The notes under the pieces were generated by a model. It ran no database searches. It saw only the letters and a list, made by a program, of their open reading frames with translations, and was not told the origin of the DNA. Positions 7,943 to 42,511 of a stretch of 64,000 nt of DNA are shown here, in pieces. The position numbers and the translations under genes were made by a program. Every line of letters starts with the position of its first letter. Within the stretch, counting starts at the first letter, position 1. Source of the DNA: Gemmatimonadaceae bacterium (GTDB lineage: Bacteria > Gemmatimonadota > Gemmatimonadetes > Gemmatimonadales > Gemmatimonadaceae); assembly GCA_019637445.1 (NCBI GenBank), contig JAHBVS010000002.1, positions 248,001-312,000 on the forward strand, given 5' to 3'.

Positions 7943-8029
7943 CTGAGCGGTCCGCCTGCGATGAACCGAGACGGGTGAGACGTGCGATGCGGGGCTCAGC
8001 ACACCGCTACCCTCCCGTTCAGCGAGCGC

Positions 8030-8035
8030 TATGAT
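8030..8035 (+). promoter_or_regulatory. Candidate -10 element for leaderless transcript
   Basis: TATGAT lies exactly six bases before the ATG at 8042. No Shine-Dalgarno-like sequence is visible in the gap, so transcription could start at the start codon itself. No convincing -35 is seen. The same TAnnnT-N6-ATG geometry occurs before paaA. Confidence 0.4.
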
Positions 8036-8041
8036 TCAAGC

Positions 8042-8293
8042 ATGGCGTCACCCCTTTCTCCGGACACCACGCAGGCGGCTGCCGCGTTGCAGTACGCGGC
8101 GTGGCGAGCAATGACTCCGGCGCAGAAGCTGGAGCAGGTTGCCGCGTCGACGTCTGCGGTGCTGGATCTCGAGCGTGCGGGATTGCGCCGGCAGCACCCG
8201 GAGTATGGAGCGGCCGACGTGCACTGGGCATCAGTGCTGCGACGGTTAGGGCACGAGCTCGCTGCGCGTGTCGCTGCTGATTCCGCCGCGTGA
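8042..8293 (+). CDS. Small conserved protein paired with a nucleotidyltransferase
   Basis: Uncharacterised 83-aa soluble protein. Visible features are a helical core with WRAMTPAQKLEQV and GLRRQHPEYGAADV. I recognise this pattern (Met-Thr/Ser-Pro, Lys-Leu, then a Gly-Ile/Leu-Arg-x-x-His-Pro segment) in small proteins that often sit beside nucleotidyltransferase genes. The stop overlaps the start of the next gene as GTGA, so the two are probably made together. The ATG at 8042 is preferred over an earlier in-frame start because a -10-like TATGAT precedes it. An antitoxin or partner role is inference only. Confidence 0.7.
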   Translation: MASPLSPDTTQAAAALQYAAWRAMTPAQKLEQVAASTSAVLDLERAGLRRQHPEYGAADVHWASVLRRLGHELAARVAADSAA

Positions 8294-8871
8294 CAGGTGA
8301 GAAGCTGCCGGGCGTCGTCGACATCGCCCTTGATGTCAGCGCGCGGCTAGAACAACTGGGCGTTTCTAGCCTCCTGGCGGGTTCGCTCGCGAGCGCGGTG
8401 TACGGCGAGCCAAGGACGACGATGGACGTCGACTTGGTTGTCGGCTTGCGTCCGGCGGACGTCGACGCGCTGGTCCACGCACTGCAGGACGACTACTACG
8501 TCGATCCTGACGTGGCGCGCGACGCAGCGACGGCGGGAGGCACATTCAACGCCGTACATCGCCGTGCTGGCATCAAGGTCGACTTCTTCGTTGCCGGAAC
8601 GGACGCGTTCGACCTCGCTCGGCTCCAGGATCGCCAACCGATCCAAGTCGGCGAGCCGCCGAGGACCGTGTGGGTCGATACGGCCGAACACACGTTGGTG
8701 CGAAAGCTTGAGTGGTATCGGCGTGGAGGTGAGGTATCGGAACGCCAGTGGCGCGACGTGCTCGCCATCGTGCGCACACAGGGTGACCGGTTGAGACGAC
8801 CGACGATGGAGCACTGGGCGGCGCAGGTTGGCGTCGGCGACCTGCTGCGTCGTTGCCTCGACGGGATGTAG
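8290..8871 (+). CDS. Nucleotidyltransferase-fold protein (AbiEii/MNT-like)
   Basis: Predicted DNA-polymerase-beta-type nucleotidyltransferase of 193 aa. The active-site pattern is visible: Gly31-Ser32 (LLAGSLASAVYG), Asp46-x-Asp48 (MDVDLVV) and a third carboxylate Asp98 (IKVDFFV). A conserved helical C-terminus follows (VRKLEWYRRGG, WRDVLAIV). These residues would bind two metals and a nucleotide. Similar proteins include AbiE toxins and antibiotic or tRNA-modifying transferases. It is tightly coupled to the small upstream gene, suggesting a two-gene cassette. The substrate is unknown. Confidence 0.8.
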   Translation: MTGEKLPGVVDIALDVSARLEQLGVSSLLAGSLASAVYGEPRTTMDVDLVVGLRPADVDALVHALQDDYYVDPDVARDAATAGGTFNAVHRRAGIKVDFFVAGTDAFDLARLQDRQPIQVGEPPRTVWVDTAEHTLVRKLEWYRRGGEVSERQWRDVLAIVRTQGDRLRRPTMEHWAAQVGVGDLLRRCLDGM

Positions 8872-8914
8872 GCACCGGCAGGCCTCGCAGCAGGGTCACG
8901 GAACTGTTGCGACT

Positions 8915-9487
8915 CTATTGCTGACAGTTGATGCGCCTCATCGGGAAGTCGATGCCGCGCATCTGTCCGCCGCGCGGGCCCTCGATGCGCGCCACCAGAG
9001 AGTCGCTGCCGACGCGCCGGTAGATGATGCGTTGCGGGAAGTCGTGGGCCGGGTTCGCGAACGCCACGCTGGTGTCGCTTACCGACTCAGAGGTGAAGCT
9101 GGTCTCGGCTTGGCGCGAGGGCTTGGCGGTGTAAACGAGCTTCCCGTCGCGCTCGGTGATTGAGAGGAACTCCCACTCGCGGATCGTGTCGCGGACGACG
9201 GTGCGGTTGACGGCGAGCATCGCGCCGCCGAGGGGTGGCATCCAGTGCTCGTGGACGACGCGCGCGCCGGCGCGCAGTTCCCAGCAGCCGGCGATCCAGC
9301 CGAGGGAGGCGATGCGGGCCTGCGAGGCCATCGGGGCGACGCTGGGGGGCGATTGCGCGGCGGATGCGGTCGGCGAGGCCTGCGCGGCGGGTGCCGTGGG
9401 CGAGGCCTGTGCGTTGGTGGTCTGGGGACTCGCGACAAGCGCGAGAGCGACGAGCGGGGCGGCAATACCTGCGCGGCAGCGCGACAT
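8915..9487 (-). CDS. Secreted DUF6265 family protein
   Basis: Periplasmic or secreted protein of 190 aa with a signal peptide ending near NAQA (residues 1-27). A low-complexity Ala/Pro/Ser/Thr linker (about 28-55) follows, with two near-identical units around QASPTA. The folded part begins with the DUF6265 signature LGWIAGCWELR and continues through HEHWMPPLGGAM, ITERDGKLVYTAKPS and FANPAHDFPQRIIYRR, which suggests a lipocalin-like beta-barrel. Function is unknown. It is transcribed away from the AraC-type regulator across a 97-bp gap. Confidence 0.85.
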   Translation of the reverse strand: MSRCRAGIAAPLVALALVASPQTTNAQASPTAPAAQASPTASAAQSPPSVAPMASQARIASLGWIAGCWELRAGARVVHEHWMPPLGGAMLAVNRTVVRDTIREWEFLSITERDGKLVYTAKPSRQAETSFTSESVSDTSVAFANPAHDFPQRIIYRRVGSDSLVARIEGPRGGQMRGIDFPMRRINCQQ

Positions 9488-9584
9488 ACGGGTGGCCTCG
9501 AATGGGTGGATTCCAGCGCCCGAATCTGCGCGCCGTTGTCACGGGCACCTTGGACGATTGCGACGGGCTTGGCAAGATTCCCTG

Positions 9585-10385
9585 ATGGACTACGCGGAGC
9601 TCGCGCCGGCCCCGGCGCTGCGGGAGGTCGTGCGCTGCTACTGGTTCCTGGCCGGCCCGGAGGGACCGACGGAGCCCGACCCGGCGCTGCCGGACGGGTC
9701 GCCGGAGCTGATCTTCAGTCTGGCGGCGCCCTTCGTGGCGGTGGGTGCTGACGGCGCGGAACGGGAGCAGCCTTCACGGTTTCTCGTGGGGCAGATCACC
9801 GGGCCGTTCGCGGTGCGTGGGACCGGCCGGGCGGACTTGGTCGGCGTGCGCCTCGAGGCGCACGGAGCCACGTGGCTGGCGCCCGACCTGAGTGCGCTGA
9901 CGGACAGCTGGATCGACCTCGCGGGCGCCTCGAACGGAGCGCTGGATGTCGTGGCGGGCGAACTCACGCACGCGAAATCGCCGGCGCAGCGAAAGGCCGT
10001 GCTGGACGCAGCGCTTGTGCCGCTCGTGGCCGCCGGTCGCGCCGCCGACTGGCGTGTCCGCGACGCCGTGCGCGCCATTCGCACAAGCCACGGCTTGGCC
10101 GACATCGCAGGCTTGGCGAAATCGCTCGGTACCACACCGCGCTCTATGCAGCGACTCTTCGCGCGAGACGTGGGCATCTCGCCGAAGCGATTGGCCCGCA
10201 TGGTCCGATTCCAGCGTGTCTTCGCAGCCTGGCGCGCCGATCCCGCTTCGCTCGCACGGGTGGCGGCAGAATGCGGGTACTTCGATCACGCCCATCTCGT
10301 GCGCGACTTCCGCGAACTGGCCGGCTTGCCGCCGGCCAGCTTCCTGGAGAATCAGCCTGAGTTCACGCGGTTCTTCGTGAGCTAG
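9585..10385 (+). CDS. AraC-family transcriptional regulator with DUF6597-type N-terminus
   Basis: DNA-binding regulator of 266 aa. The N-terminal ~150 residues match the DUF6597 sensor type (RCYWFLAGPEG, LPDGSPELIFSL, FLVGQITGP, VGVRLEAHG). The C-terminal AraC domain (about 160-262) has two helix-turn-helix units: LADIAGLAKSLGTTPRSMQRLFARD and VAAECGYFDHAHLVRDFREL. The ATG at 9585 is chosen because it matches the start of the conserved N-terminal domain; a longer frame upstream is antisense to the DUF6265 gene. Its stop overlaps that of the convergent RidA gene in a CTAG. Confidence 0.9.
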   Translation: MDYAELAPAPALREVVRCYWFLAGPEGPTEPDPALPDGSPELIFSLAAPFVAVGADGAEREQPSRFLVGQITGPFAVRGTGRADLVGVRLEAHGATWLAPDLSALTDSWIDLAGASNGALDVVAGELTHAKSPAQRKAVLDAALVPLVAAGRAADWRVRDAVRAIRTSHGLADIAGLAKSLGTTPRSMQRLFARDVGISPKRLARMVRFQRVFAAWRADPASLARVAAECGYFDHAHLVRDFRELAGLPPASFLENQPEFTRFFVS

Positions 10386-10816
10386 CGCTGCGGCATCACC
10401 GCCTGGCACTCGATCTCGACGTTCGCGCCAGGCACGACCAAGGCCTTGATCACCACCGTGCTGCGCGCTGGCGGGGAGTTCGGGAAGAACTCGGCGTAGA
10501 CCTCGTTCATGCCCTGGAAGTCCGAGGCCTCGACGAGGAACACCGTGCACTTCACGACGTTGGTCATGTCCGTGCCGGCCTGCTCCAGGATCCGCTTGAT
10601 GTTATCGAGCGCCGCGCGGGTCTGCGCCTGGATGCTCTGGTCCTCGGCGCCGCGGCGCATGCCGAGCTGGCCGGACGTGTAGACCATGTTGCCGACGCGG
10701 ATGGCTGGCGTGAGCGTGCGCGACGGGTTGCCGATGGGCTCCCGCGCCTGTGACTCGACGACGGCGGGAAGCGCGGCGAGCGCGAGAAGGGCGAGCAAAC
10801 GGTTGCGCATGGTCAT
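10382..10816 (-). CDS. Exported RidA (YjgF/UK114) family protein
   Basis: RidA proteins hydrolyse reactive enamine/imine intermediates released by amine- and amino-acid-oxidising enzymes. This 144-aa protein carries an N-terminal signal peptide (residues 1-24, RNRLLALLALAALPAVVESQA), unusual for a family that is mostly cytosolic. The RidA core follows: VYTSGQLG, QTRAALDNIKRILEQAG, KCTVFLVEASDF, and the substrate-binding Arg118 in PPARSTV. ATG at 10816 overlaps the stop of the cytochrome c gene (ATGA), so the two are coupled. It sits opposite a Tat-exported FAD oxidoreductase that could produce imines. Confidence 0.88.
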   Translation of the reverse strand: MTMRNRLLALLALAALPAVVESQAREPIGNPSRTLTPAIRVGNMVYTSGQLGMRRGAEDQSIQAQTRAALDNIKRILEQAGTDMTNVVKCTVFLVEASDFQGMNEVYAEFFPNSPPARSTVVIKALVVPGANVEIECQAVMPQR

Positions 10817-11205
10817 CTCGGGGCGGAGGAGGTGGGACTGAAGCCGAGTCGCGCGGCGGCGAGCACGGTGGTGTCGGCGGTGAGCGGCTGGACGCCGGCC
10901 ACGATGCCGTTGATCTGCATCAAATACGCGACGATGTCGGTGTAGGCCCTGGTGCTGAGGCTGCCGGGGCTGTCCTGCGGCATCGTGCTGCTGATGCGCA
11001 GGTAGAGGTCCAGCGCCGTGCGGCCGCCCCAGCGGACCTTGAAGTCCGGCGAGGCCATGTCCTTCGTGGCGTGGCAGTGCATGCAGGTGCCCTCGTACCA
11101 ACGCTGGCCGCGCACGGCCTGCGAGTCGGTGAAGGACTGTGTCGAGGGCTGCTGCGCACCCAGGGGCGCAGCCACTGCGAAGGCGAGGGCGAGAAGGAGG
11201 CGCAT
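10813..11205 (-). CDS. Small periplasmic cytochrome c
   Basis: Monoheme c-type cytochrome, 130 aa, with a signal peptide ending near PLGAQ (residue 18). The heme site is CMHCH (Cys41, Cys44, His45), and Met75 in TMPQDSPG is the likely sixth ligand. The body (WGGRTALDLYLRI, YTDIVAYLMQIN) is similar to the cytochrome at 19381-19842, which accompanies a PQQ dehydrogenase. It probably accepts electrons from a neighbouring periplasmic dehydrogenase, here the FAD protein encoded divergently. Stop and start overlap with the RidA gene. Confidence 0.9.
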   Translation of the reverse strand: MRLLLALAFAVAAPLGAQQPSTQSFTDSQAVRGQRWYEGTCMHCHATKDMASPDFKVRWGGRTALDLYLRISSTMPQDSPGSLSTRAYTDIVAYLMQINGIVAGVQPLTADTTVLAAARLGFSPTSSAPR

Positions 11206-11310
11206 CGATGGACAGGAAACTCGCCGCCGCGCGGGGCGGAAGCAACGGGACGAGGTTTGCGTGCGTAGCGGAGAGAGCGCAGATTCGCGCGGTCCACACC
11301 CTACGCATCG

Positions 11311-12723
11311 ATGACCCCACCTGCTGACGACTCCACCTCCGCGGGCCTGCCGCGCCGGGACTTCCTTCGCATCGCCGGGCTGGGCGCGGGAGCCGTGCTG
11401 GCCGCGCCACACGCGGCTGCGGGGCAGGCACCTGCCGCCGTGCGCAGCCGTGCCTCGTCCAACATCATCGTGGTCGGCGCCGGGATCTGGGGCGCCACGA
11501 CGGCCCTCAACCTCGCCCGAGGCGGTGCCAAGGTCACGCTGATCGACGCCTACGGGCCCGGGAACTCCCGCGCCACCTCGGGCGATGAGACCCGCGGGAT
11601 CCGCTCCACCTACGGTGACCGCTCGACGTCCGCGGAGTTGTGGGTGCGCTGGGCGCGTGAGAGCATCACGCGCTGGGCCGCGTTTGACGCCGAGCACGGC
11701 AAGCGCTTTGGCACGCGGTTCTTCATGACGACTGGTGACGTGTTGATGCGCGAGCGCGAAGAGCCCTTCGTGACGCGCTCGGCGGCGCTCTGGGACGGAC
11801 TCAAGGTCAAGTACGAGCGCGTGAGTCCCGAGGAAGCGCGCAAGCGCTGGCCGCAGATCAACACGGAGCCGTATCCGGTGATCCTCTATGAGCCGGACGC
11901 AGGCGTGGCGCGCTCACGCGCGGCCACGCAGGCCACGGCGGCGCTAGCGCGGGATGCCGGTGTGGAGTTGCGCATCGCCCGCGTGACACCGGGCGCGCTG
12001 AACTCGGAGCGGATGGATGGCGTCCGGCTTGACGATGGCACGGTGCTACAGGCCGATGCCTACGTGTTCGCCTGCGGGCCCTGGCTGCCCAAGGTCTTCC
12101 CGCAGGAACTTGGTGACCGCGCGCGCACGCCGCTGGGACACGTGTGCTACTTCGGCACGCCAGTGGCGGATGAGCGCTTCACGGTGCCGAACATTCCGAG
12201 CTGGAACGTGCCCGGTGTGACCGGTTGGGGCGCGCTGCCTGTGGACAGCCGCGGCTTCCGCGTACGTGGCGCCTTTGCGCCGCCGCGTCCGCCGCGCGCG
12301 GACGATGAGGACGAGCCGCCTCCGCCTCCGCGGCAGAGTGCGCCTGACCCGCGGCTGCAGGACCCGGACCTAAGCATCCGCTGGTCCTCGCAGGACCGCA
12401 TCGATGGCTCGCGTCGCGTGCTGGAGAAGGTGTTTCCGACACTTGCCGAGGCGCCGATCCTCGAGACGCGTTCGTGTCACTACGAAAGCAGCATCAATCG
12501 CAACTTCATCGTGGACCGGCTGCCGGGAGCTTCGAACGCCTGGGTGGTCGGGCTGGGGCAGGCCGAGGGCTTCAAGTTCGCGCCCTTGGTCGCGGAGTTC
12601 GCGGCCAAGCGGCTGTTAGGGCAGCAGGTGGATGCGGAGCTGGTGGAGGCGTTCAAGTTCCCGACGGAGCGGTATGACGCGAACAACACCGGGCGGCGAG
12701 GGGATGACGATGATGATGCATAA
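11311..12723 (+). CDS. Tat-exported FAD-dependent oxidoreductase (DAO family)
   Basis: Flavoprotein of the D-amino-acid oxidase/sarcosine oxidase superfamily, 470 aa. A twin-arginine signal is visible (PRRDFLRIAGLGAG, residues 14-27), so it is probably exported folded with FAD. The FAD-binding Rossmann motif is IVVGAGIWGATTALNLARGG (about 53-72). Family stretches include SRATSGDETRGIRSTYGD and, near the C-terminus, NFIVDRLPGASNAWVVGLG. A Pro/Asp-rich insert (about 328-352, around DDEDEPPPPPR) and a terminal run of Asp are unusual. Oxidation of an amine or amino acid is likely; the substrate is unknown. It overlaps the next gene by 14 bp. Confidence 0.85.
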   Translation: MTPPADDSTSAGLPRRDFLRIAGLGAGAVLAAPHAAAGQAPAAVRSRASSNIIVVGAGIWGATTALNLARGGAKVTLIDAYGPGNSRATSGDETRGIRSTYGDRSTSAELWVRWARESITRWAAFDAEHGKRFGTRFFMTTGDVLMREREEPFVTRSAALWDGLKVKYERVSPEEARKRWPQINTEPYPVILYEPDAGVARSRAATQATAALARDAGVELRIARVTPGALNSERMDGVRLDDGTVLQADAYVFACGPWLPKVFPQELGDRARTPLGHVCYFGTPVADERFTVPNIPSWNVPGVTGWGALPVDSRGFRVRGAFAPPRPPRADDEDEPPPPPRQSAPDPRLQDPDLSIRWSSQDRIDGSRRVLEKVFPTLAEAPILETRSCHYESSINRNFIVDRLPGASNAWVVGLGQAEGFKFAPLVAEFAAKRLLGQQVDAELVEAFKFPTERYDANNTGRRGDDDDDA

Positions 12724-13804
12724 GTCCGTACGTGGCACCGCACTTGGCATCGTGCTGTTGCTGCCGACGATTGCCGGCGCGCAGATGACGCCGAACGCGC
12801 CCGACAGACCCGTCAACGATCGCCCAAACGCGTATCGCACGATTGAAGGATGGGCCAAGCTGCCCGACGGCCGCACCTGGGGCTCCACGAGCGCCGTCGC
12901 GATCGATCCCGACGGCGAGAGCGTGTGGGTGGCCGAGCGTTGTGCCGCGAACTTCTGCGTGGGCTCGGACCTGGATCCGATTCTCAAGTTCGACGCGAAC
13001 GGCAACCTCGTACGTTCGTTTGGCCGTGGATTGATTGCCTGGCCGCACGGCATGACGATCGACCGCGAGGGCAACATCTGGGTCGCCGATGCGCGCGACA
13101 ATCGTGCGGCGCTGCGGCAGGCCGCCGAGGCAGGGCAGGCCGTCGACTCCGCGCGGATCTACGGACACCAAATCCTCAAGTTCTCGCCCACGGGCGAGCT
13201 GCTGATGACGCTCGGCTCCAAGGGCGGTGGTCGCGAGCCCGGCTTCTTCTGGGAGCCCAACGCGGTGATGATCGCGCCCAACGGCGACATCTGGGTGGCC
13301 GAGGGGCACAGCTCGCGCGGGGAGGCGAACGCACGGGTGCTCAAGTTCGACCGCACAGGCAAGCTGCTGCTCACGATGGGCTCAACGCGCGGTGGCGAGC
13401 TGGGCAAGTTCGATCAACCACACGCGCTGGCGATGGATTCGCAGGGGCGCGTGTTCATCGCGGACCGTTCCAACAATCGCCTGCTGATCTATGACCAGCA
13501 GGGGAAGCACCTCGACACTTGGTATCAGTTTTCGCGCATCAGCGGGTTGTTCATCGATGCGAACGACGTGCTCTATGCGGCGGATTCGGAGTCTGGGTCC
13601 ATTGATCCTTCGCGACCCGAGTGGAAGCGCGGGATTCGGATTGGGAATGCGCGGACGGGTGAGGTGACGGGGTTCATTCCGGACCCGGTGGAGCAGACGC
13701 GTGGGACGTCGGCCGCGGAAGGTGTGGCGGTGGACCGGAATGGTGTGATCTATGGGGCCGAGGTTGGGCCTAGGGCGTTGAAGCGGTACGTGCGGCAGAG
13801 ATGA
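12710..13804 (+). CDS. Secreted NHL-repeat beta-propeller (peptidyl-hydroxyglycine lyase-like)
   Basis: Exported 364-aa beta-propeller with a signal peptide ending near IAGAQ. At least five NHL-type blades are visible, such as AVAIDPDGESVWVAE, GMTIDREGNIWVADARDN, AVMIAPNGDIWVAEGH, ALAMDSQGRVFIADRSNNRL and GVAVDRNGVIYGAE. This resembles the lyase domain of peptidylglycine alpha-amidating enzymes, though catalysis is not shown. ATG at 12710 has GAGGGG at a suitable distance; ATGs at 12704, 12713 and 12716 are alternatives in frame. The run of ATG codons is the out-of-frame reading of the upstream poly-Asp codons. Confidence 0.82.
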   Translation: MMMHKSVRGTALGIVLLLPTIAGAQMTPNAPDRPVNDRPNAYRTIEGWAKLPDGRTWGSTSAVAIDPDGESVWVAERCAANFCVGSDLDPILKFDANGNLVRSFGRGLIAWPHGMTIDREGNIWVADARDNRAALRQAAEAGQAVDSARIYGHQILKFSPTGELLMTLGSKGGGREPGFFWEPNAVMIAPNGDIWVAEGHSSRGEANARVLKFDRTGKLLLTMGSTRGGELGKFDQPHALAMDSQGRVFIADRSNNRLLIYDQQGKHLDTWYQFSRISGLFIDANDVLYAADSESGSIDPSRPEWKRGIRIGNARTGEVTGFIPDPVEQTRGTSAAEGVAVDRNGVIYGAEVGPRALKRYVRQR

Positions 13805-13883
13805 AGGAATGGTGAAGGCCGAATGAGGAATTGAGATTCGGTCTTGTGCGGGTGCGGCTTCGGTCAGACCGTAGCGCGCACCT

Positions 13884-15047
13884 ATGCATATCTCAACACG
13901 TCTCTTCGTTTCGGCGGCGTTGCAGGTCGTTCTTGCCGCCGCCTGCTCCAGCGAGCCCGTCAGCGATGCTGGTGCTGGTGAGTTGGAGCGTCCTTCCGCT
14001 TACGAATCGCTGCCGCGCGTGCAGCCGGTCTACGAGTCGCCGCTCTGCCATGACCAAGCGCGTTGCGCGCTGCCGCCAGAGCCTCACGGTGCGGTCAACT
14101 CCAATGGCGACGCGATCGTCGGTGTGAGTTCTCCCGACCTCCCGCCGGTGGTGCTCGTGCCGGCCGCGACGCGCGAGCTGATTCCCATTGGGCGCCGGGG
14201 GACGGGGCCGGGCGAGTACCGCAGCCCGTTCGCGCAGGCGTTCGACGCGAATGGCGACCTGCTGCTGGTCGACCCCTTCGCGCGGCGGATGCTCCGCTAC
14301 TCGTCCACCGGTGCGAGCCTGCAGACGGCGCGCATCTCATTGCCTCCGGCGATGGCGCAGGTGGGCTCGATCGGCAACATCGCGGACGGCCGCATGCACC
14401 TGCTTGGGGCGACCGCTCCGGAAGCAAAAGGCACTGCCGCTGACAGCGCACGGATCCAGCTGTTCTGGCTCGCGCCAGACGGCGACGCCGAAGTCCGGCA
14501 TTCGCTGGAGCTTCGGCTGCCGGTATTCGGTCTCGGCGCGATGATCGAGGCGCCTCCGATCTTTGCAGCGCACGCGCTCTTTTGGGTGGCGACGGGCGGT
14601 GTGGTCTACCTCGCGCGGGCGCAGACGCTGTCCGTGGAGCGATTCGACTCGACGGGTCGACGCGATCGGGTGGCCGGGTTCGCGGTTGCTGGGCGAAAGG
14701 TGGAAGAGGCGGACGTGCGTCGGTTCCGCGAGCGGATGATGCCGTCTGGTGCTCCGTCCGCCATGCGCGAGGCAATCGAGCGGCAGCTCGCTCGGCGCCC
14801 CGACCGGCATCCCGCGGTGATGCGGATGCAGCGCACGGCCGACGGCGAGCTTTGGCTGGGCCAGACGCCTAGAGTTCAAGGCGACAGCGTCGAGTGGTTG
14901 GTGTTCGACGCGGAGCTCAAGCCTCGCGTGCGCGTCTGGCTCGCGGCCAGCGACGCGATCATCGGCGGTACGCGGGGCAGGGTGCTCATCGCACGGGAAG
15001 GCGATGCCGGCGAGCAGGACGGCTACTGGTGGGCACGGCTGCCCTGA
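13884..15047 (+). CDS. Lipoprotein with predicted six-bladed beta-propeller
   Basis: Predicted outer-membrane or periplasmic lipoprotein, 387 aa, with a lipobox LAAAC (Cys21). The body contains propeller-like repeats: AFDANGDLLLVDPFARRMLRYSSTGA, IADGRMHLLGA, LSVERFDSTGR and RTADGELWLG. The RRGTGPGEYRSP element resembles the 6-bladed propeller lipoproteins common in Gemmatimonadota and Bacteroidota. A region with SPLCHDQARCALPP carries a cysteine pair that could form a disulfide. No catalytic residues are recognisable and the function is unknown. Confidence 0.75.
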   Translation: MHISTRLFVSAALQVVLAAACSSEPVSDAGAGELERPSAYESLPRVQPVYESPLCHDQARCALPPEPHGAVNSNGDAIVGVSSPDLPPVVLVPAATRELIPIGRRGTGPGEYRSPFAQAFDANGDLLLVDPFARRMLRYSSTGASLQTARISLPPAMAQVGSIGNIADGRMHLLGATAPEAKGTAADSARIQLFWLAPDGDAEVRHSLELRLPVFGLGAMIEAPPIFAAHALFWVATGGVVYLARAQTLSVERFDSTGRRDRVAGFAVAGRKVEEADVRRFRERMMPSGAPSAMREAIERQLARRPDRHPAVMRMQRTADGELWLGQTPRVQGDSVEWLVFDAELKPRVRVWLAASDAIIGGTRGRVLIAREGDAGEQDGYWWARLP

Positions 15048-15093
15048 GCGAACTTCGGGGCCGTCAGTCCCCTCGCTCAGGAGTTTCGGTCCA

Positions 15094-16896
15094 GTGTCTC
15101 GCCGTCATCTGCCAATCACGCAGCTGTTTTCGTCGCTCGGCTTCGCGGCCGCGATCGTGCTTCTGCTTCCCTCAAGTGGCGCGGCCCAGCGCCGCGCCGC
15201 CCAAGCCGCGCCTGCGCGGGTCTCCGGACCCAGCGCCACCGCCCAGAGCGAACTGCGCGACAGCGTCGCCATCATGATGTCCGACCGCGCCGCGCTCCAG
15301 CGCCGCTGGACGGTGGACTACTCCCCGGACCGCGCCGCCCGCCTGCGGGCGTTCTACGCGGACTGGCGCGCCCGACTGGCCAAGGTGGACTTCGACCGCC
15401 TGAGCCAGGAAGGCAAGATCGACTACGTCCTGCTCGACAATCGCATTCGGCAGGAACTGGACCAGCTTGACCGCGACACGCGCCTCGCCGGTGAGATGCG
15501 ACAGTACACGCCGTTTGCCGCGACCATCACGGGATTCGAGGAGGCGCGCCGCCGCTTCGAGCGCCCGGACGGCCAGAGCACCGCTCGCGCGCTGGCCGAC
15601 ATGGCCAAGCAGATCGACAGCCTCACCAAGGCCGTGCGCGCGCGGCAGCCGCAGTCCGCACAGATCACGCGTCCCGAGCGCATCGTCGGTCTGCGCACGA
15701 TTGCCTACCTCGGCGAGCTCTCTGGCACGCTGCGCAACTGGCACCGCTTCACCTCGGGCTACGACCCGGAGTTCTCGTGGTGGACGGCGGACCCGTATCG
15801 TCGTGTCACTGACGGGATGACGGCCTACACGCGCGCCATCCGCGAGGTGATTGTCGGGCAGAAGCAGGGCGAGGAGGAGCCGATCATCGGTGACCCGATC
15901 GGTCGGCCTGGCATCATCGCCGACCTTGGCTTCGAGATGATTGCCTACACGCCCGAGGAGATCATCAAGATCGCCGAGCAGGAGTTTGCGTGGATTGAGG
16001 CGGAGCAGAAGAAGGCCTCGCGCGCGATGGGCTTCGGCGACGACTGGCGCGCGGCGCTGGAGAAGGTGAAGCAGGCCTACGTGCCGCCGGGTGACCAGCC
16101 GGAGATGGTGCGCGACCTGGCGCGCTACTCAGTGAAGTTCGTCACGGACCGCGACCTGGTCACGGTGCCGCCGCTGGCCGACGAAGTCTGGCGCATGGAG
16201 ATGATGCCGCCGCGCCAGCAGTTGGTGTCGCCGTTCTTCCTCGGTGGCGAGATCATTCAGGTCGCGTATCCGACTGACAGCATGCAGCACGACGACAAGC
16301 TGATGGCGATGCGCGGCAACAACCCGCACTTCTCCCTCGCGACGGTGCACCACGAGCTGATCCCAGGCCATCACCTGCAGGGCTTCATGACGCAGCGCTA
16401 CAACTCGCACCGTGGCGCGTTCAGCACGCCGTTCTGGGGCGAGGGTTGGGCGCTGTGGTGGGAGATGCTGCTCTGGGACCTGGACTTCCCGCGCACGCCG
16501 GAAGACAAGATGGGGATGCTCTTTTGGCGCTCGCACCGCGCGGCGCGGATCATCTTTTCGCTCAAGGTGCATCTTGGCGAGATGACGCCGCAGGAGGCGG
16601 TGGACTTCCTGGTGGACCGCGTGGGGCACGAGCGTGCGAACGCCGAGGCGGAGGTGCGGCGCTCGTTCAACGGCTCGTACTCGCCGATGTATCAGGCGGC
16701 GTACATGCTTGGCGGGCTCCAGTTCCGTGCGCTGCACCGGGAGTTGGTGCAGTCTGGGCGCATGACGAATCGCGAGTTCCACGATGCGATTCTGCACGGG
16801 GGGCGGATGCCTGTTGAGATGGTTCGGGCTCGGCTCCTTGGCACGCCGTTGACGCGGACATATCGGGCTTCGTGGAAGTTCTATGATCTGAACTGA
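15094..16896 (+). CDS. Secreted DUF885 metallohydrolase
   Basis: Predicted zinc-dependent peptidase-like enzyme of the DUF885 family, 600 aa, with a signal peptide ending near GAAQ. The GTG at 15094 has CAGGAG about 10 bp upstream and begins just before the signal peptide. The zinc motif HHELIPGHHLQ lies near residue 420 (His420, Glu421), followed by WGEGWALWWE about 30 residues later, which supplies a further Glu. The C-terminal ALHRELVQSGRMTNREFHDAILHGG is also typical. The substrate is unknown. The gene ends just before an inverted-repeat element. Confidence 0.9.
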   Translation: MSRRHLPITQLFSSLGFAAAIVLLLPSSGAAQRRAAQAAPARVSGPSATAQSELRDSVAIMMSDRAALQRRWTVDYSPDRAARLRAFYADWRARLAKVDFDRLSQEGKIDYVLLDNRIRQELDQLDRDTRLAGEMRQYTPFAATITGFEEARRRFERPDGQSTARALADMAKQIDSLTKAVRARQPQSAQITRPERIVGLRTIAYLGELSGTLRNWHRFTSGYDPEFSWWTADPYRRVTDGMTAYTRAIREVIVGQKQGEEEPIIGDPIGRPGIIADLGFEMIAYTPEEIIKIAEQEFAWIEAEQKKASRAMGFGDDWRAALEKVKQAYVPPGDQPEMVRDLARYSVKFVTDRDLVTVPPLADEVWRMEMMPPRQQLVSPFFLGGEIIQVAYPTDSMQHDDKLMAMRGNNPHFSLATVHHELIPGHHLQGFMTQRYNSHRGAFSTPFWGEGWALWWEMLLWDLDFPRTPEDKMGMLFWRSHRAARIIFSLKVHLGEMTPQEAVDFLVDRVGHERANAEAEVRRSFNGSYSPMYQAAYMLGGLQFRALHRELVQSGRMTNREFHDAILHGGRMPVEMVRARLLGTPLTRTYRASWKFYDLN

Positions 16897-16898
16897 TG

Positions 16899-17086
16899 GC
16901 CACAGAGGCACAGAGACGCAGAGGGTCTCGCGGGGCGACCTAACCTCTGTGCGTAGACTCTCCCAAAATTCTTAGGGGGCTCGGCGGACAGATCTGTCCG
17001 CCGAGCCCCCTAAGAAGTTGCAGGTGGGATTAGACGCAGAGGCCAACGCGCGCGCTCAACCCTCTGTGTCTCTGTGCCTCTGTGGC
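16899..17086. repeat. Inverted-repeat element A with tandem 8-nt arm units
   Basis: Two 27-nt arms, 16899-16925 and 17060-17086, are inverted copies with a single mismatch. Each arm is about three tandem 8-nt units of the type CACAGAGG/CACAGAGA. The 134-nt interior has a second, weaker inverted pair (CCTCTGTGCG and ACGCAGAGG) around a perfect 48-bp palindrome. It fills the gap between convergent genes. The same arm sequence recurs at 36639-36756. No gene is supported inside. Confidence 0.85.
16969..17016. terminator. Perfect 48-bp palindrome, probable bidirectional terminator
   Basis: Every base from 16969 to 17016 is matched by its reverse complement (24 + 24, no loop), centred on the GA|TC at 16992/16993. 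The stem is G/C-rich with AA/TT at its ends. As RNA it would form a very stable hairpin between the convergent DUF885 and PQQ dehydrogenase genes. It sits within element A. Long perfect palindromes are rarely kept, so a transposition or recombination role is also possible. Confidence 0.7.
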
Positions 17087-17108
17087 AACCCGCGCAGATC
17101 CATCCAAA

Positions 17109-19337
17109 TCACGGCAGCCTGAGCGCCACCAATGAAGTCGAAGAGCCAGCCCCAGTCGCAAACACGATGTACTGCTTCCCACGATGCATGAACGTCATCG
17201 GCATCGCCGTGGTGCGCGAAGGAATCTCCACGGCACCGACCTGACGGCCCGTAGCCTTGTCGACCGCGTAGAGCATCGGCGTGGCGCCAGGGACGCCGCC
17301 CGAACGGCCCGTGCCGTAGATCAACAGCGACTTGGTGACGATGAGTTGCGCCTGGCCGCTGGCGGGACGCGGCGGGATTGTCACGCCGGCGAAGAGCGGG
17401 TCGTTGCTGCGCTGCGGGACCATGCCGCCGTTCGGGATCCACCAACGCTTGTCGCCCGACTTCATGTCGTAGGCCGTGATGCCGCCGAGCTCGGCCGGCT
17501 TCAGGATCGACACCCCGTGGAGGTTGGAGGCCGCCGCGCGGCCACCGAAGCCGCCGCCGCGGGATTCCGGCGCCACGTAGCCCTCAGGTGGCTCCAGCGC
17601 GCCGATTAGGCCGCAGTTGTCGCGCGGCGAGCTGTAGCGGAACTCGGAGCAGGGGTCCTTCTGCAGCGTGATCGTCGAGAGTCCGCTCAGGGCGGCGACG
17701 TACATCATCCCCGTCTCGAGGTCCACGCCGGCGCCGCCGTCGATGTTCACGCCGCCCGAGGCGCCGGGCGCGTACCAAGAGCAGCGCGTGCCCGTCGGGC
17801 TGCTGCCATCGGAGAGCACCGCCGGGATGAAGTACGGGCCCATGCGGCACTTCCGCGCCATTGCGAGCGCCGAGTCGCGAATGGCGGGCGTCCAGTCAAT
17901 CACGTCTTCTTCTTCTAGCCCTTGCTGCGCGTAGGGTGCCGGCTTGGTCGGAATCGGCTGCGTGGGCGATGCGCGCTCGCCGGGCACGTCGCTGGCCATC
18001 ACCGGCGTCTCGACAATCGGCCAGATCGGCTCGCCCGTCGCACGATCGAACGTGTACAGCCAGCCCTGCTTGGTGCTCTGCGAGATCACCTTGCGCTGAC
18101 GGCCGTCCACCACGGCATCGAAGAGGTTCGGCGCCATCGGCGTGTCATAGTCCCAGATGTCGTGGTGCACCATCTGGAAGTGCCAGCGGCGACGGCCCGT
18201 CTTGGCGTCGATTGCGACCAGCGAGTTGCCGTAGAGATTGTTGCCCGGCCGATGGCCGCCGTACTCGTCCATCAGCGGCATGCCGACGGGGATGTAGACC
18301 AGCCCGAGTTCTGGGTCCGCCGAGTAGGTGGCCCACGCGTCGTTCTTGCCCACGCCTTCCGTGCCGATCTTCGAGCCATTCTCCCAGGTCTCGGCGCCGA
18401 ACTCTCCCGGTTGCGGGACGAGATTGAACTTCCAGAGCTGTCGCCCCGTGCGCACGTCGAAGCCGCGGATGAAGCCCGGCAGGTTGCGCACGCGGATCGG
18501 GTAATAGCCGTGGATGCTGGAGTTGCCGAGCACGATGACGTCGTTGACCATGATGGCCGGCGACGAGATGGCGATCTGGCCGTTCACCGGGTCGATGCCG
18601 ACGGAGCCGTCGGCCCCGGTGCGCGTGACGGGGTCCCATCCTTCGCCGGGCTTCGCGCGGCGCAGCGGTGCGGCGTCGGAGATGATGAGTGGCCCGCTGT
18701 CATCAACCGCGAGCGGCACCAGCGGGAAGCCAAGGCCGTTCTGCAGGTCCACGACGCCGTTCACGCCGAAGCGCGGGTCGGGAATGCCGGTGCGCGCGTC
18801 GAGCGACACCAGATGGTATCCGGGCGTCGTGACGATGATGCGCTCGATGGTGCCGTCGGTCCAATACGTGAGGCCGCGGCCGGCGAACTGGCGCGGGGCC
18901 TTCTGCCAGCGGATGCCTTCCTCGAGGCGATAGCTCCAGAGAGTCTCGCCGGTCTCGGGATCGATTGCCATCGCCACGCGACGCGTGGTGGCGACGGTGA
19001 AGAGCCGGCCGTTGGCGTAGAGCGGAGTCGTGCGATAGTACTCGTCCGCACCGAAGGCGCCGGCGTCCCACTGCCAGGCCATCTGCAGGCTGCCGAAGTT
19101 CGACGCGTTGATCTGGTCCAGCGGCGAGTAGCGCGAACTCCAGGCGTCGGCGCCCCAGACGCGCCATTCGCCGTCCACGTTCCCGCGGGCGTTCGGCAGC
19201 GTGACGCGGCCGTTGCCGCCTGGCGCGGTGCTCGGGCGCACGTGCTGCGCGTGGAGCGGATTGGTGAGCGGCGCGCTCGCGGCGGCGAGGGCGAGGGCCG
19301 CGACAGCGGCCAGTGGCGTGCAGCGACGGAACATCAC
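17109..19337 (-). CDS. PQQ-dependent dehydrogenase (membrane glucose dehydrogenase-like)
   Basis: Periplasmic quinoprotein of 742 aa that oxidises a sugar or alcohol using pyrroloquinoline quinone. A signal peptide (residues 1-30, ending LHAQ) precedes an eight-bladed propeller with PQQ motifs: WRVWGADAWSSRYSPLDQI, AIDPETGETLWSYRLEEG, FDVRTGRQLWKFN, AIDAKTGRRRWHFQMVHHDIWDYD, and FDRATGEPIWPIVETPVMASDVPGE. The WP-(x)-E-x-PV-PGE stretch and the DIWDYD region are typical of glucose-dehydrogenase-like members without the N-terminal membrane domain. It is cotranscribed downstream of a cytochrome c, the likely acceptor. The substrate is not determined by sequence. Confidence 0.9.
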   Translation of the reverse strand: MMFRRCTPLAAVAALALAAASAPLTNPLHAQHVRPSTAPGGNGRVTLPNARGNVDGEWRVWGADAWSSRYSPLDQINASNFGSLQMAWQWDAGAFGADEYYRTTPLYANGRLFTVATTRRVAMAIDPETGETLWSYRLEEGIRWQKAPRQFAGRGLTYWTDGTIERIIVTTPGYHLVSLDARTGIPDPRFGVNGVVDLQNGLGFPLVPLAVDDSGPLIISDAAPLRRAKPGEGWDPVTRTGADGSVGIDPVNGQIAISSPAIMVNDVIVLGNSSIHGYYPIRVRNLPGFIRGFDVRTGRQLWKFNLVPQPGEFGAETWENGSKIGTEGVGKNDAWATYSADPELGLVYIPVGMPLMDEYGGHRPGNNLYGNSLVAIDAKTGRRRWHFQMVHHDIWDYDTPMAPNLFDAVVDGRQRKVISQSTKQGWLYTFDRATGEPIWPIVETPVMASDVPGERASPTQPIPTKPAPYAQQGLEEEDVIDWTPAIRDSALAMARKCRMGPYFIPAVLSDGSSPTGTRCSWYAPGASGGVNIDGGAGVDLETGMMYVAALSGLSTITLQKDPCSEFRYSSPRDNCGLIGALEPPEGYVAPESRGGGFGGRAAASNLHGVSILKPAELGGITAYDMKSGDKRWWIPNGGMVPQRSNDPLFAGVTIPPRPASGQAQLIVTKSLLIYGTGRSGGVPGATPMLYAVDKATGRQVGAVEIPSRTTAMPMTFMHRGKQYIVFATGAGSSTSLVALRLP

Positions 19338-19380
19338 GCGACTCCGAGTGGTGGGGTGGAGCGTCGGCGAGTGAAGCGAC

Positions 19381-19842
19381 CTACGGCAGTGTGTCGATGC
19401 GGATACGATGCAGCGTCAACGAATCTGTGGATAGAGGGACGTTCCCCGGCGGCATTGCGTTGATGCGCAGGATGTACGCGGTGAGGTTGGCGTACTCGTC
19501 GTTGGTCATCGTGCCGGGATCGGTCTGCGGCATCTCGCGGCGGAGATACGTGAACAGGTCGGCGACGCTGCGGCCGCGCCACTTGCCCATGAAGGGCGGG
19601 CCGGAGTGCTGGAGTGGGGCGTGGCAGGACTGGCAAGCGAGCGCGAACAGGTCGCGGCCCGCATCGGCCTGCTGGCGCGTGTAGACGCCGTTGGCGGTGC
19701 TGCGGGTGGTGTCGAAGGCGAACGCGGTGAGGGCGCCAACGCCTCGAGTCGCGTGGCGCGTCGTTGGCGCAGGCCTCTCAGGGGCAGCGGCAAACGCAAA
19801 CACCGCGACGAATGAAGCGAGGGCAGAGATCCAGGCAGTCAT
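19381..19842 (-). CDS. Periplasmic cytochrome c partner of the PQQ dehydrogenase
   Basis: Monoheme cytochrome c, 153 aa, with an N-terminal signal (residues 1-20). The heme motif is CQSCH (Cys70, Cys73, His74), with Met104 in REMPQTDPG as probable axial ligand. It shares the pattern W-x-GR-x3-DL-x2-L/YLR-x2-MPQ-x2-PG with the cytochrome at 10813-11205. It lies between the HupE-like gene, whose stop is 3 bp upstream, and the PQQ dehydrogenase, so the three form one minus-strand operon. An ATG start is chosen over a TTG one codon earlier. Confidence 0.9.
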   Translation of the reverse strand: MTAWISALASFVAVFAFAAAPERPAPTTRHATRGVGALTAFAFDTTRSTANGVYTRQQADAGRDLFALACQSCHAPLQHSGPPFMGKWRGRSVADLFTYLRREMPQTDPGTMTNDEYANLTAYILRINAMPPGNVPLSTDSLTLHRIRIDTLP

Positions 19843-19845
19843 CAA

Positions 19846-21264
19846 TCAGGATTCAGGTCGGAGCAGTCGCGTCGAGACCTCGCGCACGGCGAGCGCCGCG
19901 ATGGCAGTGACGGACAATAGCAGGGCGAGGCGCACCAAGCCGAGCGCCAGCGATGTGTCGGCGGCGGGAAGACTGACGCGGAGGTCGTACGCTGCGAAGG
20001 CGGAGAATCGTGCGGTCATCCAGTGCCAGGCCTCGTGCGCCACCAGGGCGGACCCCACCCAGACTGCAAGGTGCCGCCGCTCTGCCGGCAGTGCCTCCAT
20101 CAGGCGTGCGAGCAGCGGGACCAGCAGCGCCACGACCAGCAGTTGCCCCGCCTCCACGCCGATGTTGAAGGCCGCGAGCGCCGTCATCAGGTTGGCCCCC
20201 GCGAACTGCAACTGCTCGCCGAGCGCGAACGAGAAACCGAAGCCGTGGATGAGCCCGAAGGCAAACGCCACGCGCCATCGCCGCTCCAGGCGCTCCGGAG
20301 GAAGCAGCACGTTCTCCACCGCGAGCCACACAATCGACGCAGCGATGAGCAGCTCGACAAGCGGCGGGAACCACGCGGCGCGCGGGACCACGCCGAGCGC
20401 CGCGGCGCCGAGGGTGACCGAGTGCGCCACGGTGAAACTCGTCACCAGCGCCAGCAGCGGTCGCCAACGACGAATGGGCAGCACCAGGCAGAACACGAAC
20501 AGCAGGTGATCGAATCCGCCGAGGATGTGGCGAAAGCCGTCCACCAGGAACTGCGCGCCGCTCTGCCACCACGCCGGGTCCAGCGCGATCACGCCGGGGT
20601 CACCGACGTACGAGAGGCTGCGCGTTTCGCCTGTAGGAAGGACGAGATGCACGACGCTGGTCGTACGGATTCCGAGCCTTGCCAAGGCAGGGTTGAGCGC
20701 GAGGTCCGCGTCAGCAGCGGGTATCGGCGCCTCGAGCCAGACGTCCAGGAGCGGTTGCTGCCAAGGAATGGCGATCGCGTTGTCGAGCAGCGGGGCGTCG
20801 AACGATGCCAGCGCGGCTTCGTACGAGTCGAACGAGCGGTCGCTGGGCAACGCGAGACGTGCCCGCAGCACGCGGGGCGAGCCAATCGCCTCGCCGTTGG
20901 CTCGCAGACCAATGGCGTCGGCAATCCAGGTCTTGGCCAGCCCCGGCAGCAGCTCGCGTACAGCGACGAGGTCCAGCGATCCGTCCGGCCGCGTGGGCTC
21001 GATGACGTCGCGCATCGCCTCCAACGGCACGCGCACGAGCACCGTAAGCACGGTGTCGCGCGGGACCACGAACGCGCGGACGGCGACGCGGGCGGGGATT
21101 TCGTGCGCCGCCGCGTGACGCGGCAGACCGGCGAAGAGCAGCAGCAAGATGCCCAACGTCACGGCACGGAACGCCGACGCATCGATTCGCGCGAACGGGA
21201 ACGGGAACGCGGACGCGGGGCGCGGCGTCAGCGGTCGACTTGGCTGGGCAGGCGGCTGGTGCAT
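19846..21264 (-). CDS. HupE/UreJ-like membrane protein with exported N-terminal domain
   Basis: 472-aa protein with a signal peptide-like segment (about 27-55, ending AAAHEIP) and a ~210-residue extracytoplasmic domain (RVAVRAFVVPRDTVLTVLVRVPLEAM). The membrane part has about seven helices and carries the HupE/UreJ_2 signature GFRHILGGFDHLLFVFCLVLP, then TSFTVAHSVTL and IHGFGFSFALGEQ. His residues in HILGG-DH and AHS resemble metal-binding positions of the HupE family (nickel or other transition metals). The start at 21264 avoids a long upstream extension without signal features. It heads the PQQ operon. Confidence 0.85.
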   Translation of the reverse strand: MHQPPAQPSRPLTPRPASAFPFPFARIDASAFRAVTLGILLLLFAGLPRHAAAHEIPARVAVRAFVVPRDTVLTVLVRVPLEAMRDVIEPTRPDGSLDLVAVRELLPGLAKTWIADAIGLRANGEAIGSPRVLRARLALPSDRSFDSYEAALASFDAPLLDNAIAIPWQQPLLDVWLEAPIPAADADLALNPALARLGIRTTSVVHLVLPTGETRSLSYVGDPGVIALDPAWWQSGAQFLVDGFRHILGGFDHLLFVFCLVLPIRRWRPLLALVTSFTVAHSVTLGAAALGVVPRAAWFPPLVELLIAASIVWLAVENVLLPPERLERRWRVAFAFGLIHGFGFSFALGEQLQFAGANLMTALAAFNIGVEAGQLLVVALLVPLLARLMEALPAERRHLAVWVGSALVAHEAWHWMTARFSAFAAYDLRVSLPAADTSLALGLVRLALLLSVTAIAALAVREVSTRLLRPES

Positions 21265-21353
21265 CACGGCGGGGAGATATAGCATTTGCGGCGCCTCGGC
21301 ACACGGGGCGCCGTCGGACCACGACTCAGGACACGTCCAGGGGACTTCCTTCG

Positions 21354-22535
21354 ATGAACCGGAGAACAACGCTCATTGCCGCCGCTTCGCTGGGCGCGCT
21401 CATCGCTACGCTCACGGTTGCCGAGCGCCAGCTTTCGGCCGATGCGGCCGAGCAGCCCGTGCAGGCACCGCGGTTCGAGGTGGATCCCTACTGGCCCAAG
21501 CCCTTGCCCAACAACTGGGTGATCGGTTCGGTGATCGGCATCGGCGTGGACTCGCGCGACCACGTGTACATCGTGCATCGGCAACAGTCGCTGAATGCGC
21601 GCACGGAAATTGGGCTCGCCTCCGACCCGCCGACGGGCGACTGCTGCGCCCCGGCCCCGCCGGTGTTGGAGTTCGATCCCGAGGGCAATCTCGTGCGGGC
21701 CTGGGGTGGTGAGGGGCAAGGCTACACTTGGCCGAACTCGAATCACGGCGTGGCCGTGGACCATCTCGACAACGTCTGGATCGGGGGCAACGGTCAGGGC
21801 GACTCGCACATCTTGAAGTTCTCCCGCGATGGCCGGTTCATCGCGCAGTACGGCGAGCCGGGCAAGCCGGCGAACAGCAATAGCCGCGAGTACTTCGGGC
21901 GCGTGGCCAAGATCTCGTTCGACGCCGCCGTGAACGAGGCCTACGTGGCGGACGGCTACGGCAACAAGCGCGTCGCGGTGCTGGACATGGGGACGGGCGC
22001 CATCAAGCGCTTCTGGGGCGCCTACGGCAACGTGCCGTCGGATTCGAACCTCGGTCCCTACAACCCGGATGCGCCGCCAGCGCCGCAGTTCCGGAACCCG
22101 GTGCACTGCGCGGAGCCGTCGGCCGACGGCTTGCTCTACGTGTGTGATCGCCAGAACAACCGCATCCAGGTCTTCCGCCGCAACGGTGAGTACGTGAACG
22201 AGGTGCGCATCGCGCCGCGCACGCTCGGCGACGGGGCGGTGTGGGACATCGCGTTCTCGCGCGACCGCGAGCAGCGCTTCCTGTACCTGGCCGACGGAAA
22301 GAACGAGAAGGTCTACGTGATGGACCGCAAGTCGCTCACCGTGCTGACGAGCTTCGGTGGTGGCGGTCGCCAACCGGGACAGTTCTTCGCGGTGCACTCG
22401 ATCGCCACGGACTCCAAGGGCAACATCTTCACGACCGAGACCTACGAGGGGAAGCGCGTACAGCGCTTCGTGAACAAGGGAATGGCGAGCGTGACGCGTC
22501 GCGACCAAGGGCCGCCGTGGCCCACGGGGCGGTAG
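21354..22535 (+). CDS. Second secreted NHL-repeat beta-propeller
   Basis: 393-aa exported NHL propeller with an N-terminal hydrophobic signal (residues 7-23). Blades include GIGVDSRDHVYIVHRQ, VLEFDPEGNLVRAWGGEG, GVAVDHLDNVWIGGNGQGDSHILKF, EAYVADGYGNKRVAVLD, LYVCDRQNNRIQVFRRNGEY and SIATDSKGNIFTTETYEGKRVQRF. The HVYIVHRQQS and CCAPAPPVLEFD elements are shared with peptidyl-alpha-hydroxyglycine lyase-like proteins. It is divergent from the HupE-cytochrome-PQQ dehydrogenase operon. The function is unproven. Confidence 0.82.
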   Translation: MNRRTTLIAAASLGALIATLTVAERQLSADAAEQPVQAPRFEVDPYWPKPLPNNWVIGSVIGIGVDSRDHVYIVHRQQSLNARTEIGLASDPPTGDCCAPAPPVLEFDPEGNLVRAWGGEGQGYTWPNSNHGVAVDHLDNVWIGGNGQGDSHILKFSRDGRFIAQYGEPGKPANSNSREYFGRVAKISFDAAVNEAYVADGYGNKRVAVLDMGTGAIKRFWGAYGNVPSDSNLGPYNPDAPPAPQFRNPVHCAEPSADGLLYVCDRQNNRIQVFRRNGEYVNEVRIAPRTLGDGAVWDIAFSRDREQRFLYLADGKNEKVYVMDRKSLTVLTSFGGGGRQPGQFFAVHSIATDSKGNIFTTETYEGKRVQRFVNKGMASVTRRDQGPPWPTGR

Positions 22536-22562
22536 CCACCGAGGGGTTCGGAGCGCGTCAAT

Positions 22563-22594
22563 GAGCGGGGCGCCCCAGACGGGGCGCCCCGCTC
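22563..22594 (+). terminator. Strong hairpin terminator after NHL gene
   Basis: A perfect 14-bp G/C-rich stem (22563-22576 with 22581-22594) and an AGAC tetraloop lie 27 bp after the stop. There is no clear T tract downstream, so it may act by stalling or with Rho, or simply protect the 3' end. It separates the NHL gene from the giant lipoprotein. Confidence 0.7.
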
Positions 22595-22654
22595 TGTAAC
22601 TGGGGTCACGAACAGCCCTAGCGCACGGCACGCTTCGTGCACACGTTCTGCCGT

Positions 22655-36631: not shown

Positions 36632-36638
36632 ACTGCAT

Positions 36639-36756
36639 GCCACAGAGGCACAGAGACACAGAGAACTGCGAGGTCAATGTTGAACTGCGCCCGCAATCTG
36701 GCGTGCAGCGCGTAGTTCACCCTTGGCTTTCCTCTGTGTCTCTGTGCCTCTGTGGC
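36639..36756. repeat. Inverted-repeat element B between paaA and paaB
   Basis: Arms 36639-36663 and 36732-36756 are perfect 25-nt inverted copies built of three 8-nt units (CACAGAGG, CACAGAGA, CACAGAG). The 68-nt interior shows no other clear feature. The arm sequence is the same as in element A. It lies inside the paa operon, so the transcript would form a long hairpin between paaA and paaB. Confidence 0.85.
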
Positions 36757-36785
36757 AAAGCTGTTTCCCTCATTGGGCAGAAAGC

Positions 36786-37924: not shown

Positions 37925-37993
37925 CGCCGGCGAATGACTGATGCGTGACCGCGGCGGACCTTTGGACCGCGACCGTGCGTTTGTAGCAATGCG

Positions 37994-38500: not shown

Positions 38501-38562
38501 GACGAAGGACGGAAGACGGAAGAGGCGAGGCCGTACGGCCTCGCCTCCTTCGTCCTTCGTCC
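38501..38562. repeat. Inverted-repeat element D, probable bidirectional terminator
   Basis: The gap between the convergent paaD and MATE stops is wholly an inverted repeat. The core 38522-38547 is a perfect 26-bp palindrome. Outside it are tandem 7-nt purine units (ACGAAGG, ACGGAAG, ACGGAAG) on the left and two matching inverted units on the right, so the left arm has one extra unit. The design resembles elements A-C but the arm sequence differs. Confidence 0.75.
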
Positions 38563-42439: not shown

Positions 42440-42511
42440 TGGGGTGGAATCTGGCTTGGTGGCCCTTGTTGCGGTACTCGTCCGTTCGCTGCTTGGCTGG
42501 ATCGATGTGAA

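Follow-up and report, generated by a model that had tools for sequence, protein, structure and literature searches.

The locus at positions 10382–13804 of the window (the whole stretch of 64,000 nucleotides analysed here) contains four genes, for a RidA protein, a one-haem cytochrome c, a Tat DAO-family flavoprotein, and an NHL propeller. The question is which reaction would bring these proteins together outside the cytoplasm. A preliminary description had read them as one extracytoplasmic amine-oxidation system. Our reading, which we consider rather probable, is that the module would be a Tat-exported, cytochrome-c-linked dehydrogenase for a carboxylate-bearing amine, and that RidA would hydrolyse the imino acid it releases. 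The analysis confirmed all four genes, and the features of the region are as follows.

10382..10816, minus strand: RidA, Rid family (PF01042), with a Sec-type signal peptide and the conserved PPARS arginine
10813..11205, minus strand: one-haem cytochrome c, predicted exported (PF13442; single CxxCH, which is CMHCH)
11206..11310, no strand: divergent intergenic region of 105 bp that separates the two gene pairs
11311..12723, plus strand: Tat-type flavoprotein, DAO/sarcosine-oxidase-like (PF01266, E = 2.8e-42)
12704 or 12710..13804, plus strand: six-bladed NHL propeller, predicted exported, peptidyl-hydroxyglycine-lyase-like (PF01436)
15094..16896, plus strand: DUF885 protein, near the module in several congeners, not co-inherited, used as a control
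17109..19337, minus strand: PQQ-type quinoprotein dehydrogenase, predicted exported (PF01011), co-inherited with the flavoprotein in the family
19381..19845, minus strand: second cytochrome c, in the quinoprotein block (PF13442)
19846..21285, minus strand: HupE/UreJ-like membrane protein, syntenic with the quinoprotein block
21354..22535, plus strand: second NHL propeller, predicted exported, syntenic

The layout agreed with the preliminary description. The RidA start codon (ATG, 10816–10814) overlaps the cytochrome stop codon (TGA, 10815–10813), and the resulting ATGA, which couples the signal-peptide RidA to the exported-type cytochrome c, was read directly from the sequence. An alternative in-frame RidA ATG at 10810 is possible. 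Across 11206–11310, this pair faces the divergent genes of the Tat flavoprotein and the exported-type NHL protein, which overlap by the 14 bp described before (ATG at 12710) or by 20 bp if the ATG at 12704 is used. No RNA elements of a known kind were found at 8000–24000. Elsewhere in the window, ORFs at 35669–49088 resemble a phenylacetate (paa) degradation cluster, by reading alone, and 22637–30352 is a single reading frame of 2571 residues with a repetitive, adhesin-like sequence. The source bacterium is of a soil and lake type.

The flavoprotein and its adjacent cytochrome

The flavoprotein begins with the twin-arginine segment PRRDFLRIAGLGAGAVLAA, with RRDFL at residues 15–19. RRxF precedes the FAD motif in 93 of the 94 distinct homologues, the exception being truncated by a contig end. 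The closest solved proteins were monomeric sarcosine oxidase (MSOX) and N-methyltryptophan oxidase, and the AlphaFold model (pLDDT 82) matched the MSOX group best; fructosyl amine oxidases were among the next closest structures. Pfam assigned the protein to PF01266 (DAO) and gave no match to PF01593 (FAO/MAO). The NCBIfam cut-offs were missed both for soxA_mon (89.6 vs 479.65 bits) and for N-methyltryptophan oxidase (137.9 vs 257 bits). Some members of the family carry a Pro-rich insertion of ~25 residues.

The MSOX and PAL sequences used for comparison were verified letter by letter against the PDB chains. Residues Arg95, Arg98, Tyr101, Cys389, Tyr391, and Lys422 of the flavoprotein are invariant in 24 homologues, and their MSOX equivalents are, in this order, Arg49, Arg52, Tyr55, Cys315, Tyr317, and Lys348. 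Cys389, the counterpart of MSOX Cys315, is the predicted site of covalent FAD attachment; the CHY motif with this cysteine occurs in 109 of 110 homologues. In MSOX, the carboxylate of the substrate is held by Arg52, Tyr55, and Lys348 (PMC12582975). Their retention suggests that the substrate bears a carboxylate and would be an amino acid or an N-alkyl amino acid, not a plain amine. The preliminary description had allowed for an amine or an amino acid; the conserved Arg/Tyr/Lys triad speaks for the amino-acid type, and the plain amine was given up.

MSOX Lys265 has a part in the half-reaction with oxygen, and replacing it with Met reduces oxidase activity (PMC7312611, PMC5459902). We found no lysine between PNxPS and FRVR, the segment corresponding to that of MSOX Lys265, in any of the 85 homologues parsed. 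MAFFT and HHalign placed S313/R314 opposite Lys265, whereas the by-eye alignment placed the invariant R317 there (GFRVR opposite GLKLG). Because of this disagreement, our claim is limited to the absence of lysine from the segment. Some DAO-family oxidases lack that lysine, and its loss alone need not abolish oxidase activity.

The class-wide search covered 295 genomes, of which 247 had a match to the flavoprotein. Many of these matches were distant paralogues; those of orthologue grade ranged from 71% down to ~40% identity. The first sample consisted of 40 flavoprotein neighbourhoods, for which genes were called; six-frame searches were run on such loci. Of the 40, 30 had a cytochrome c gene no more than ~1 kb from the flavoprotein, in divergent, co-directional, and downstream placements. 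RidA adjoined the flavoprotein in 13/40, every one from the window's own family, and an NHL gene stood within the same block in 15/40. Rearranged blocks with NHL but without RidA occurred at L053, L054, L056, and L063. The second sample comprised 80 loci on named contigs, part of which were shared with the first sample, and the 75 loci that had over 1 kb of upstream sequence (Gemmatimonadota and Acidobacteriota) were scored with family HMMs.

The search for co-occurrence that the preliminary description had proposed found conserved linkage. The pairing of flavoprotein and cytochrome runs across the class and reaches the Acidobacteriota (Vicinamibacterales and Thermoanaerobaculia MAGs), into which the flavoprotein family extends. 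Cytochrome c lay within 1 kb of the flavoprotein in 57/75 loci, both divergent and co-directional, RidA within about 1 kb (≤1.2 kb) in 20/75, and NHL within 1 kb in 17/75. As an internal control, the cytochrome density was 0.41 per kb within 1 kb vs 0.007 per kb at 1–3 kb. The RidA density was 0.14 per kb within 1 kb, and no RidA was found at 1–6 kb in 625 kb of flank (75 loci). The linkage of the module genes is far above chance. Neither the locus counts nor the genome counts are phylogenetically independent; since the loci are related by descent, we weighted changes of arrangement above counts.

The invariant core is the flavoprotein with its cytochrome, and RidA is optional and lineage-specific. 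RidA is missing from most flavoprotein–cytochrome pairs, so the chemistry does not require it. Some members of the family have it 10–15 kb from the flavoprotein or on another contig; genus g3 has its RidA and NHL genes 13–20 kb away, with the quinoprotein block nearby. The adjacent cytochrome is absent at some RidA-bearing loci (L037, L039, L040, and the cstA clade described below).

Within the MAO-type superfamily, a Tat signal with an adjacent cytochrome gene marks cytochrome-using dehydrogenases, experimentally so in the tested cases (PMC12224317, PMC9396064). By analogy, the cytochrome encoded at 10813–11205 is the probable electron acceptor of the flavoprotein. Alternatively, the flavoprotein could act in the periplasm as an oxidase, reducing O2 to H2O2, with the cytochrome serving the PQQ quinoprotein and the linkage being regulatory only. 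The co-inheritance of a second cytochrome/quinoprotein block would suit such an oxidase, as would the loci L061/L144, where two cytochromes and a quinoprotein directly precede the flavoprotein, and the fact that some Tat flavin amine enzymes without an adjacent cytochrome are oxidases (PMC12224317). Yet cytochrome c also adjoins the flavoprotein in lineages without a quinoprotein or NHL gene nearby, and the oxygen-activation segment has no lysine, so we regard the oxidase as unlikely.

RidA proteins with export signals

The N-terminus of RidA, MTMRNRLLALLALAALPAVVESQAR, combines a hydrophobic segment with an ESQ/AR boundary that resembles a cleavage site, as is typical of Sec signals. The protein matched PF01042 (E = 6.2e-32), keeps the active-site arginine (Arg105), and narrowly missed the NCBIfam TIGR00004 cut-off (99.7 vs 106.25 bits); it was assigned to the Rid family, with no subfamily. 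All full-length flavoprotein-linked RidA copies retain the arginine of PPAR[ST] and carry a signal peptide. Imines produced by FAD amino acid oxidases are hydrolysed by Rid proteins with this arginine, and genes for FAD amine oxidases and Rid proteins occur in clusters together (PMC4433059, PMC5619798). We found no description of a secreted or periplasmic RidA in the open-licence literature, an absence that is not proof; within that scope, the earlier remark that an exported RidA beside an exported flavoprotein seems undescribed held.

The arrangement ridA-dao-cstA is a second, differently arranged pairing of a RidA carrying an export signal with the flavoprotein. In five MAGs, ridA and dao lie on one strand, and the gene of a CstA transporter (PF02554, E about 1e-138) is located directly behind the flavoprotein gene (L136:7332-9327, L140, L148, L149, and L150). 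Both junctions have 4-bp overlaps in L136, and four of the five MAGs share the 4-bp overlap between dao and cstA. The RidAs of this clade bear lipoprotein-type signals, for example MRRFSGVLFLAVLIPLIMAGC, and in the RidA tree they form their own branch (100/96), separate from that of the window type (99/99). None of the five loci showed an adjacent cytochrome c. CstA homologues were also located near the flavoprotein in L159, L124/L173, and L161. In several of the five MAGs, a small protein of 84–93 aa follows cstA; it is perhaps YbdD-like, and the one tested gave no Pfam match. The CstA of E. coli is a pyruvate importer, also known as a peptide transporter (PMC5847655). If CstA means pyruvate here too, an alanine-type substrate would yield 2-iminopropanoate and then pyruvate, which would be taken up.

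The RidA proteins with predicted export form a whole clade in the phylum. The window genome encodes six Rid proteins, two of them with signal peptides. The second of these (G000:C1:1398929-1399270; loci L076 and L160) stands beside an M24 peptidase, without a DAO flavoprotein; hence RidA export is a clade trait and is not tied only to the module. In four relatives, a PALP (PLP-dependent) gene adjoins RidA (L033, at L033:4729-5724, and L035, L038, and L042), and none of these PALP proteins has a clear signal peptide. At L165:6446-8350 (G245), a window-type RidA adjoins an aminotransferase class V protein with a Tat signal, which might be a further exported source of imines.

RidA might then treat imines or enamines of PLP enzymes, or serve as a general envelope protectant, its adjacency to the flavoprotein being an accident of island structure. 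The PALP and aminotransferase neighbours and the signal-peptide RidA away from the flavoprotein are consistent with this idea. It is opposed by the PALP proteins lacking a clear signal peptide, by the RidA–flavoprotein pairing in two separate arrangements and lineages, and by the empty 625 kb of more distant flank, and we consider it very unlikely.

The NHL propeller and the co-inherited unit

The NHL model was a propeller (pLDDT 83) whose two closest folds were Thin NHL and PAL; PDB profile searches were dominated by TRIM and designed Pizza propellers. In PAL, His585, His690, and His786 are the metal ligands. Two of these three histidines are kept in the NHL protein, and the third reads Glu338. 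A blade-by-blade reading by eye matched PAL His585 to His114, His690 to His239, His786 to Glu338 (blade 6), and Arg533 to Arg78, all four of which are invariant in the NHL proteins, whereas, of the metal ligands, the automatic alignments reproduced just His114 and His239. Chemically, a lyase that acts on a hydrated imine would make sense here, as a weakly supported lead and not a result. Several families of the class have NHL propellers of the module type in multiple copies (3–6 close matches).

The propeller bears on another possible substrate, a sugar–amino acid (Amadori-type) or other N-substituted amino acid, with the NHL lyase breaking the hydrated imine and RidA playing a minor part. The fructosyl amine oxidases among the next closest flavoprotein structures agree with this proposal, as do the likeness of the NHL protein to PAL (His114/His239, Arg78, and, by eye, Glu338 in place of His786) and its co-occurrence with the flavoprotein in 35/35 genomes. 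However, PAL is not the sole close fold, the automatic alignments give only His114 and His239 and the third ligand differs, and NHL homologues are widespread in the rest of the class. We hold this alternative to be improbable.

Co-inheritance was assessed in the family set, the 75 family genomes of the class sample, with the flavoprotein present in 37 (cut-off E ≤ 1e-50). The window-type RidA (E ≤ 1e-30) occurred in 28 genomes, 28/28 with the flavoprotein (Fisher p = 4e-13), and the NHL protein (E ≤ 1e-60) in 35, 35/35 with the flavoprotein (Fisher p = 2e-19). Counted by genus, the same tests gave p = 5e-4 for RidA and p = 2e-7 for NHL. In the 53 genomes that this set shared with a further search, the PQQ quinoprotein (17109–19337) and the flavoprotein were both present in 23 and both absent in 30 (p = 2e-15). 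The window controls did not match the flavoprotein exactly in the 53 genomes (DUF885, p = 0.40; secretin, p = 0.025). Since the quinoprotein tracks the flavoprotein exactly and the controls do not, the unit inherited in the family is larger than four genes: it also holds the PQQ quinoprotein and its neighbours to about 22.5 kb. Of the view that the four proteins form one extracytoplasmic system, the linkage, the export signals, and the flavoprotein–cytochrome pairing stood; RidA turned out to be optional and the co-inherited unit larger. DUF885 was dropped as a module part, not being co-inherited.

The window genome (100% complete) gave no PqqE match over the cut-off despite its PQQ-type quinoprotein; PQQ may be scavenged, or the cofactor of the quinoprotein may differ. 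At L170:5944-7875 (G138), a HupE/UreJ-like membrane protein carries a fused cytochrome c domain and is encoded next to the quinoprotein and a second NHL gene. Tentatively, the larger unit could perform an amino-acid respiration of the envelope, in which the cytochrome-using sarcosine-oxidase-like dehydrogenase, the exported RidA, the PAL-like NHL metalloenzyme, and the PQQ quinoprotein would jointly return 2-oxo acids such as pyruvate; we regard this as doubtful.

Proposed mechanism and known systems

The dehydrogenase reading has its basis in gene identity, export signals, conserved linkage, and conserved residues, from which we infer the substrate class, the electron route, and the substrate of RidA. 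The flavoprotein would be exported by Tat already folded and FAD-loaded. Its Arg/Tyr/Lys triad would hold the substrate carboxylate, as in sarcosine oxidase, while the enzyme oxidises the C–N bond, the likeliest substrate being an alpha-amino acid or an N-alkyl amino acid. The electron acceptor would be the adjacent cytochrome c instead of oxygen. The exported RidA would hydrolyse the released imino acid to a 2-oxo acid and ammonium, which would then be taken up, in the sister clade probably via CstA. The NHL propeller might act as a metal-dependent lyase on the hydrated imine, a step that is weakly supported.

The nearest functional parallel is NicA2/Pnao with CycN, Tat flavin amine dehydrogenases that use an operon cytochrome c (PMC9396064, PMC12224317). 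The module likewise has a Tat flavin enzyme and an adjacent exported-type cytochrome c, and may be a variant of the NicA2–CycN principle in another flavoprotein family. NicA2 and Pnao have the FAO/MAO fold (PF01593), whereas the module flavoprotein has the DAO/sarcosine-oxidase fold (PF01266) with the covalent-FAD cysteine and the carboxylate triad, and the module adds an exported-type RidA and an NHL protein. With MSOX and N-methyltryptophan oxidase, the flavoprotein shares the fold, the FAD motif, and the equivalents of Cys315, Arg49, Arg52, Tyr55, Tyr317, and Lys348; it differs from them in its Tat signal, the adjacent cytochrome, the lack of a lysine in the Lys265 segment, and the Pro-rich insertion of some members. 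We found nothing on point in the open-licence literature on periplasmic sarcosine-oxidase-type dehydrogenases.

Cytosolic pairs of a Rid protein and an FAD amino acid dehydrogenase or deaminase are known in DadA/DadY (PMC9714295), DauA with Rid2/3 (PMC5619798), and OngC/OngD (PMC9537276). The module resembles these in pairing Rid with an imine-producing enzyme, but its RidA carries Sec or lipoprotein signals, whereas those systems are not exported. The NHL protein shares with PAL the six-bladed NHL propeller and the equivalents of His585 and His690 in a PHG/PHA context, and differs in having Glu338 for His786 and His201 for Tyr654. The parts are thus of known kinds; their combination and cell compartment appear to be new.

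With the module, the principle of cytochrome-c-linked amine dehydrogenases, recently recognised in the MAO-fold superfamily, would extend to the sarcosine oxidase (DAO) family, across a bacterial class that has few members in culture. The CstA operon directly predicts pyruvate as a product. RidA, known as a cytosolic metabolite-damage enzyme, would be placed in the cell envelope, which implies that imine stress would be handled there too.
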